DNA of 46,031 nt from NCBI GenBank assembly GCA_027002475.1, contig JALWZS010000038.1:1-46031 (forward strand). The letters run 5' to 3'. Positions 31,253 to 36,535 of the stretch are shown in pieces. The translations under genes were made by a program, and so were the position numbers. Numbering within the stretch: the stretch's first letter is position 1; each line of letters begins with the position of its first letter. Source of the stretch: a bacterium. GTDB lineage: Bacteria > Patescibacteriota > 4484-211 > GCA-002791395. The notes beneath the pieces were generated by a model. It was not told where the DNA came from, ran no database searches, and saw only the letters and a program-made list of their open reading frames with translations.

Positions 31253-31630
31253 TGGTGGAGATGGCGGGATTTGCACCCGCGTCCAAGCAGTCTTCGATCA
31301 TAATCAGATATACAAGCTTAGTTATTCCTTGCGGAATATAAATATTCGATAAAAATCGATGATAATGTGCTACGTTGGCTCGCGCCAACAAAATAATTCC
31401 TGATATTTATTACACCGGGCTCTACTCTCATCAGGTAGAAAGTAGTCCGATGCCTTCATAAGGTTCGCTTTACCTAATCGCCCTTAGGCGATAGCTGCAG
31501 CGTATGCATATGAAGGAGCATACGTATTATTTCTCGCATGTACTTTTTTGGTTACTTTATTTAACGAGGGAAGCAACCATCCTCGGCTTGCCAATTATAA
31601 TGAATCCTCTTGTCGAGTCTTGTCATCCCC
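31253..31630 (-). ncRNA. ssrA: Transfer-messenger RNA (tmRNA)
   Basis: tmRNA rescues stalled ribosomes together with SmpB. The 5' end GGGGATG pairs with CATCTCC before the encoded ACCA end, forming a 7-bp acceptor stem with one G-U. The T arm is GCGGG-TGCAAAT-CCCGC. The probable tag frame runs from 31537 to 31484 and reads ARNNTYAPSYAYAAAIA before a TAA, which sits in the loop of a 6-bp hairpin. The Ala-rich hydrophobic end resembles proteolysis tags, but it ends in AIA rather than the common LAA. The resume codon (GCG) is my best guess. The length is 378 bases. smpB lies 67 bases upstream. Confidence 0.94.
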
Positions 31631-35643: not shown

Positions 35644-35717
35644 GGCCCCGTAGCCAAGTGGTAAGGCAGGAGTCTGCAAAACTCTTATCGTCGGTTCGAT
35701 TCCGATCGGGGCCTCCA
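35644..35717 (+). tRNA. tRNA-Cys (GCA)
   Basis: A full cloverleaf with acceptor GGCCCCG/CGGGGCC, D arm GCC..GGC, anticodon stem GGAGT/ACTCT with loop CTGCAAA (anticodon GCA), T arm GTCGG-TTCGATT-CCGAT, discriminator T and an encoded CCA. It is 74 bases long. It is the only tRNA seen in the window. Confidence 0.97.
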
Positions 35718-35937
35718 GGTGATTCAAATTGCAAGCGCTCCAAAACACAAATTTCAAACGGTACAAGGAAATATTTTTAGTAGTTACTCTGTTGCTTTTT
35801 AATAATTGTGTCAGGTTTGGTTTTAGGTTGTTGTAGCGGTGTAATTAGTTACAGTAAGTATCCTTTATTAGTGAGGTGTCTTGGGGTGAACGATTTGGCT
35901 CTTTTTGGTGTGTGTACTAAAAGGTCAACATATCCTC

Positions 35938-35966
35938 TTGCGTTGTTTGGAGCCCTTTGCTAGAAT
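35938..35966 (+). promoter_or_regulatory. Promoter of the ribosomal operon
   Basis: TTGCGT (35938-35943), a 17-base spacer and TAGAAT (35961-35966) preceded by TGC, an extended -10. Transcription would start near 35973, giving a leader of about 100 bases before rplC, unlike the leaderless genes elsewhere in the window. Confidence 0.65.
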
Positions 35967-35988
35967 AGCGCTCGGCGTATGCAGATAT

Positions 35989-36060
35989 TAAGGAGTTGAA
36001 ATAGGTACTAAAGTACCAAGTATCCCGATATATAAAGGGGCTGGTGCTCCTTATTTTTTT
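35989..36060 (+). promoter_or_regulatory. Leader with terminator and competing antiterminator upstream of rplC
   Basis: A terminator hairpin AAGGGGC-TGGT-GCTCCTT (36035-36052) is followed by A and seven T (36054-36060), ending 13 bases before the rplC ATG. The earlier TAAGGAG (35989-35995) is the exact complement of CTCCTTA (36047-36053) and could pair with it instead, opening the terminator. A small hairpin GGTAC-TAAA-GTACC (36004-36017) lies between. This is a classic attenuator layout; the signal is unknown. Confidence 0.6.
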
Positions 36061-36073
36061 AGTAATGTAAAGA

Positions 36074-36535
36074 ATGGAAAAAATAAAAGCAAAAAAAATT
36101 GAGATGACACAGGTTTTTGGAGAGGACGGCTCTGTAATAGCTGTAACTAAGTTACAACTACTACAAAGCGGTTCTTCGCTTAATGTTAGCGACATCGTTA
36201 ACGTTAGTGGGAACGCTAAAGGGAAAGGGTTTGCCGGTGTGGTAAAAAGGCACGGGTTTGCTGGTGGTCCTAAAACGCACGGTCAGTCAGATAGGCACCG
36301 AGCTCCTGGTTCGATCGGTGCAGGTACTGATCCAGGGCGGGTTTGGAAAGGACAAAAGATGGCAGGCCGAATGGGTGGTAAAAAGGTAACCGTTAAAAAC
36401 CTAGAAGTGATTAGTGTTAACGGCGACGAGCTTTTGTTAAAAGGTGGCGTTCCAGGCTCAAGGAACAGTGTGGTTGAGATACGCGTTGTTTCTCCGGCGG
36501 GTACCAAAGACTCTAGCGAATCTGATAATAAGTAA
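36074..36535 (+). CDS. rplC: Ribosomal protein uL3, shortened
   Basis: uL3 is an early-assembling large-subunit protein near the peptidyl-transferase centre. Only 153 residues against about 205-210 usual. The N-terminus ([20 protein letters not shown]) and the core ([45 protein letters not shown]) are kept. About 50 residues that normally lie between the first strands and the VTGTSKGKGF segment are missing, which removes part of the globular outer barrel. No clear Shine-Dalgarno sequence. It opens the operon; rpsJ is not upstream. Confidence 0.95.

Follow-up and report, generated by a model that had tools for sequence, protein, structure and literature searches.

Genetic context and layout of the leader

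The window, i.e. the whole stretch of 46,031 nucleotides analysed here, contains a ribosomal protein operon headed by rplC (L3; positions 36074–36535, forward strand, Pfam PF00297), behind which the genes for L4, L23, L2, S19, L22, S3, L16, L24, L5, S8 and S5 follow in this order according to Pfam. The rpsJ gene does not head this operon and was found directly after tuf (L304, G000:C38:52696-52980). The L3 protein of the window consists of only 153 aa, and an internal segment of about 70 aligned columns, present in the sister family, is missing from the window's family. Upstream of the leader, a tRNA-Cys gene is located on the same strand (35644–35717), and a tmRNA gene on the reverse strand (31253–31630) was detected by Rfam and missed by ARAGORN. 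An antisense ORF (35917–36195, reverse strand) overlapping the leader and the start of rplC has no Pfam match and is probably spurious.

All elements of the leader described below lie on the forward strand. A sigma70-type promoter (35938–35966, score 8.7) consists of the −35 box TTGCGT (35938–35943), a 17-nt spacer and the −10 box TAGAAT (35961–35966), which would place the transcript start near 35972–35974. It is followed by a mini-ORF of seven codons, ATG CAG ATA TTA AGG AGT TGA (MQILRS*, 35979–35999), recognised from the sequence and its relatives, and since its AUG is only 12 nt downstream of the −10 box, the RNA would be nearly leaderless. A small hairpin, GGUAC-UAAA-GUACC (36004–36017), is predicted to start 5 nt past the mini-ORF stop. 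The leader ends with an intrinsic terminator, AAGGGGC-UGGU-GCUCCUU-A-U7 (36035–36060), in which the stem-loop occupies 36035–36052 and the seven-T run 36054–36060, leaving 13 bases between the end of the U-run and the rplC ATG at 36074. Folded alone, this hairpin has an energy of −10.3 kcal/mol (z −2.8), and it is the top terminator-like site within the 16 kb scanned. The promoter and the seven-T terminator ending 13 bases before rplC are thus found exactly where the initial annotation had put them; the mini-ORF is absent from that annotation, and the TAAGGAG motif (35989–35995) which it singled out as a candidate antiterminator falls inside the mini-ORF.

Conservation of the leader in the class and across the phylum

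In the sampling of relatives, the genus is represented by one genome and the class by eight, six of which have a detectable rplC; the resulting leaders are L090 (the window itself), L088, L089, L091, L092 and L093, three of them in the window's family. Alignment of related rplC leaders, which had been proposed as a check, places the terminator at the same position in 6/6, i.e. each has a promoter and then a U-tailed hairpin directly 5′ of rplC. In the five relatives a promoter of the TTGC.. −35/17 nt/TANAAT form stands at the equivalent position, and all six leaders, the window included, have an ATG 9–12 nt past the −10 box opening a short ORF which closes before the terminator. The 5′-end CTCGGCGTATGCA is common to L088 and the window.

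The survey was extended to two families in depth and to 380 genomes from the whole phylum, in 368 of which L3 is present; the small size of these genomes, mostly 0.5–1.5 Mb, and their distribution across many families point to CPR/Patescibacteria. This gave 185 leaders with rplC starts located by an HMM search for L3. A strong U-tailed hairpin no more than 85 nt from the rplC start was found in 92 of 184 leaders versus 2.5 expected from dinucleotide shuffles. Such terminators occur in 28 of 73 families, while the other 45 families, and about half of the leaders overall, are without one. As controls, a terminator was found before rplC in 1/76 cases in other phyla, and before the gene following rplC (rplD) in 1/60 cases in the same genomes. 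The median distance from the stem to the rplC start is 18 nt, and therefore there is little space for a second promoter.

Among the 75 leaders with both promoter and terminator, an ATG or GTG 8–15 nt past the −10 box with a stop before the terminator is present in 54 versus 8.3 expected, a count dominated by families f8 and f75 and obtained with search ranges set after the first examples had been seen. Weighted by family, the mini-ORF count is 11.3 of 19 families versus 2.5 expected. The mini-ORF stop is located 21–42 nt upstream of the terminator in 49 of the 54, whereas shuffles give broad distances. Promoters were picked by score alone with a cut-off of 9, and the window's own leader is outside the 75 because its promoter scores 8.7. 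When all leaders are taken and a terminator is not required, there is merely a modest AUG peak 8–12 nt past the −10 box, which becomes clear once the terminator is required.

A recurring GCUUCUAG-U-run hairpin was observed in long rplC leaders (L123, L124, L137, L152, L160, L163, L186 and similar ones from families f66, f45, f54, f135 and f94), in which no mini-ORF was found near the promoter and which possibly represent a second attenuator class.

Specificity of the module within genomes

When 282 kb from the genome of the window were scanned as stretches, 5 of 43 strong terminators proved to be located directly before an ORF of at least 60 aa, and the combination of a good promoter, a mini-ORF and a terminator occurs once, at the rplC leader, which is also the only site of this composite module within the window. 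The f8 motif TATAATN{7,13}RTGGAGGTG gives 11 matches in 26 sampled genomes, all in f8; nine of them are rplC leaders, and of the others one lies in a coding stretch resembling dnaA and one in an ordinary start region. As a separate observation, a strong terminator at L287:4914 lies 14 nt before an ORF beginning with MCLNTNMRKLLVIVGPTGSGKTS (miaA-like), with no clear promoter upstream.

Conservation of the mini-ORF frame

In f75 the distance from the ATG to a CUACAUA landmark is 28, 31 or 34 nt, so that a single frame is kept in 14/14 leaders. In most members of f8, an in-frame stop is located directly at a CCAC/CCUC strand with codon-sized spacings, and this strand pairs with the start region, GUG starts being accompanied by CCAC (11/11) and AUG starts by CCUC (8/8). 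Both the frame and the matching of start codon and strand support, at the level of sequence comparison, the suggestion that the mini-ORF is translated and that a hairpin holds its start codon.

It was also observed in f8 and f75 (e.g. L246–L270) that the codons GAG GTG make GGAGGTGAT, a near-perfect Shine-Dalgarno match just past the 5′-terminal start codon, where it might recruit or hold the ribosome. The possibility that the SD-like GGAGGTG is the conserved element instead of the ORF was rejected, as L247, with GTG GAA GTA, loses the SD-like match and keeps E-V, and the frames are kept; the stretch may have SD-like and coding roles both.

Alternative structures and candidate antiterminators

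The TAAGGAG motif is, as had been noted, the exact complement of 36047–36053, and the duplex with CTCCTTA comprises 8 bp including one U-G (−10.8 kcal/mol). As an antiterminator it fares worse, since its energy does not stand out from that of shuffles (z −1.3, p 0.11), and the pairing is not kept in L088 and L089. It was consequently rejected as a general antiterminator, not being kept in relatives and being weaker than the best pairing predicted in the window, that of AGUACCAAGUAUCCC in the spacer (36012–36026, the putative antiterminator 5′ strand) with GGGGCUGGUGCU in the left arm (36037–36048; 12 bp, −13.3 kcal/mol). A spacer:left-arm pairing is likewise predicted in L088 and L089, although six class leaders, three of them in the window's family, are too few for covariation of the 12-bp pairing.

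In the well-sampled family f75, the mini-ORF (GGAGGU, and GCUACAUAG including the stop codon) is predicted to pair with the terminator loop, the right arm and the U-run. For 13 members with the landmark, the variable spacer being replaced by AAAA, this alternative structure of 16 pairs has 91.8% of cells paired compared to 41–57% when slid, and the terminator has 98.9%; column shuffles are less decisive (14–20 of 500), because the columns vary little. Judged from these alignments, the terminator and the alternative pairing of the mini-ORF end are both conserved in f75 and cannot coexist. In f126, the partner of the left arm is the strand following the stop, with what we read as compensatory changes (CGAGUC:GGCUCG and CGAAGUC:GACUUCG). 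The idea that one antiterminator rule covers every family was rejected since the pairing partners differ: the mini-ORF end and the right arm in f75, the spacer and the left arm in f126 and possibly also in f1, and the mini-ORF start and the left arm in f8. The earlier proposal of an attenuator with mutually exclusive structures, located before the rplC operon in what is probably a CPR bacterium, is thereby retained with different pairing partners, the terminator position being kept in relatives and the alternative pairing conserved in f75.

Proposed mechanism and direction of control

What genera and families have in common, a mini-ORF located at the 5′ end and conserved in frame, points to ribosome-coupled attenuation, and the leader is probably a leader-peptide transcription attenuator of the rplC operon, as judged from sequence comparison and folding models. 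Transcription would start a few bases 5′ of the mini-ORF AUG, and the nascent RNA would form either the intrinsic terminator before rplC or an alternative pairing, of the spacer or the mini-ORF end with the terminator arms, letting RNA polymerase through. The choice between the two structures would, in the models, be set by whether and where a ribosome occupies the mini-ORF. In the most likely direction, taken from the families which can be read, a ribosome which has arrived at the mini-ORF stop would cover the antiterminator strand and the terminator would form in vivo, whereas with ribosomes scarce or stuck early the antiterminator would form and ribosomal protein mRNA would be made. Translation capacity would thus feed back negatively on ribosome synthesis without an RNA-binding ribosomal protein.

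When a ribosome is modelled at the mini-ORF stop in f75, P(terminator) rises from 0.55 to 0.96, and sequestration of the left arm drops in f126, f89, f86, f52, L088 and L089; there is no clear change in f39, f2 and f10 and a weak one in f8. For this group of families negative feedback from translation capacity is the favoured reading of the models.

The window's own leader might have the opposite sign, a ribosome at the stop masking GGUAC (36004–36008) and freeing 36012–36026 as antiterminator, so that translation would turn the operon on; the small hairpin at 36004–36017 would then be a possible anti-antiterminator according to the model. A mask reaching 12 nt past the stop indeed lowers P(terminator) from 0.98 to 0.30, but one more masked nucleotide reverses this (0.84 at 13 nt and 1.00 at 14 nt), so the predicted sign hinges on about 1 nt of footprint. 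Since the models for L088 and L089, which also belong to the window's family, point the other way, and the GGUAC hairpin does not appear to be conserved in these two leaders, an opposite sign in the window's lineage is considered unlikely.

Under ribosome-coupled attenuation, the mini-ORF could also sense a specific stalling signal, such as an amino acid or a ribosome-targeting antibiotic, instead of ribosome supply. Most known leader-peptide attenuators sense such a signal, and short peptide motifs do recur within families (EV, LAT*). Against this, no run of codons for one amino acid was found in any leader peptide examined, no consecutive Cys codons are present in the class mini-ORFs, and the peptide shows no sequence conservation among the genera of the window's class: MQILRS in the window, MHLMQYGK and MTREALLTEL in its relatives, and ORFs of 24–33 codons in the other family. 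As the peptides of the window's relatives diverge and the mini-ORF differences in f2 are spread evenly over codon positions, selection at the peptide level is not supported; it seems from these comparisons that the act of translation, rather than the peptide, matters, and a specific stalling signal is quite unlikely.

A control by ribosomal protein, in which free L4 or L3 would bind the leader and stabilise the terminator with the mini-ORF being incidental, has the precedent of the E. coli S10 operon, where L4 regulates by premature termination in the leader (PMC10931766); the present leader belongs to that same operon and likewise carries an intrinsic terminator. However, comparison across families revealed no aptamer-like element that is conserved. 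From promoter to terminator the sequences vary, the placement and frame of the mini-ORF being kept, and when the window and 20 leaders were searched against Rfam 15, only tRNA and tmRNA matches were obtained, with no leader family above the gathering threshold. We regard control by L4 or L3 as improbable, and neither the ribosomal-protein-responsive switch suggested in the initial annotation nor a ligand-binding one is supported, the shared part of the leaders being the mini-ORF.

That the hairpin is an ordinary terminator of a transcript from the upstream same-strand tRNA-Cys gene, with the rplC promoter downstream of it, is very improbable, given the good promoter between tRNA-Cys and the terminator, the 13 nt from U-run to rplC, too short a distance for any promoter other than one overlapping the hairpin, and the terminator being kept in relatives with rpsJ or another gene upstream.

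Significance and comparison with known systems

The genomes of CPR bacteria measure about one megabase and their ribosomes are reduced, and many ribosomal protein operons elsewhere are controlled by ribosomal proteins binding their own mRNA. In the open-access literature no paper was found on how CPR bacteria set ribosome number, nor a report of a mini-ORF attenuator on a ribosomal protein operon in these bacteria, this absence being weak evidence because only open-access papers were covered. A conserved translated mini-ORF, if true, would mean that these bacteria solve the problem differently, with ribosome supply being reported by the ribosome itself. Ribosome-coupled attenuation may tentatively be extended to much of the CPR phylum, where the S10-type operon would perhaps be set by a near-leaderless mini-ORF measuring available ribosomes, a protein-free feedback replacing autoregulation by ribosomal proteins; this generalisation is held with somewhat less than even confidence. 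The combination of promoter, near-leaderless mini-ORF and terminator could also serve as a marker for attenuators in unculturable genomes.

Leader-peptide attenuation is exemplified by the trp and his operons of E. coli and by ilvB1 of M. tuberculosis (PMC13236596). Like these, the rplC leaders have a short, here presumably translated ORF with its stop tens of nucleotides before an intrinsic terminator. The predicted antiterminator likewise excludes the terminator, and in the models a ribosome located at the stop shifts the balance towards termination. Unlike these, the target is ribosomal protein genes and not enzymes of amino acid metabolism, there is no regulatory codon run, and the ORF is in most families near-leaderless, of about 5–14 codons, and spread across much of the phylum.

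With the E. coli S10 leader the system shares premature intrinsic termination, predicted here, ahead of the L3-L4-L23-L2... genes; the E. coli leader, however, precedes rpsJ and binds L4, whereas the one described here precedes rplC, with rpsJ elsewhere after tuf, and has the mini-ORF as its shared part. For Archaeoglobi, an L4 leader preceding rplC is listed in a survey of new ribosomal protein leaders. In the B. subtilis rplJL attenuator, a ribosomal protein operon is likewise under antiterminator/terminator switching (predicted in our case), and the leader binds the L10(L12)4 complex (PMC4538822), the shared feature here being instead the mini-ORF.

The mycobacterial polycysteine attenuators (Canestrari et al. 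2020), as far as they are described in the papers citing them (PMC9031893, PMC13236596), resemble the rplC leaders in using a leaderless short ORF as an attenuator (near-leaderless, by prediction, here) and sense cysteine via Cys codons; the present leaders differ from that description in having no Cys run and in belonging to another operon and another phylum. The uORF attenuator of S. meliloti duf1127 has been proposed to be a sensor of ribosome availability (PMC12218461), and its attenuation depends on uORF translation, as that of the rplC leaders would, with translation capacity as the proposed signal in both, although duf1127 is a single gene with presumed Rho-dependent termination, and the leaders described here combine an intrinsic terminator with a ribosomal protein operon.
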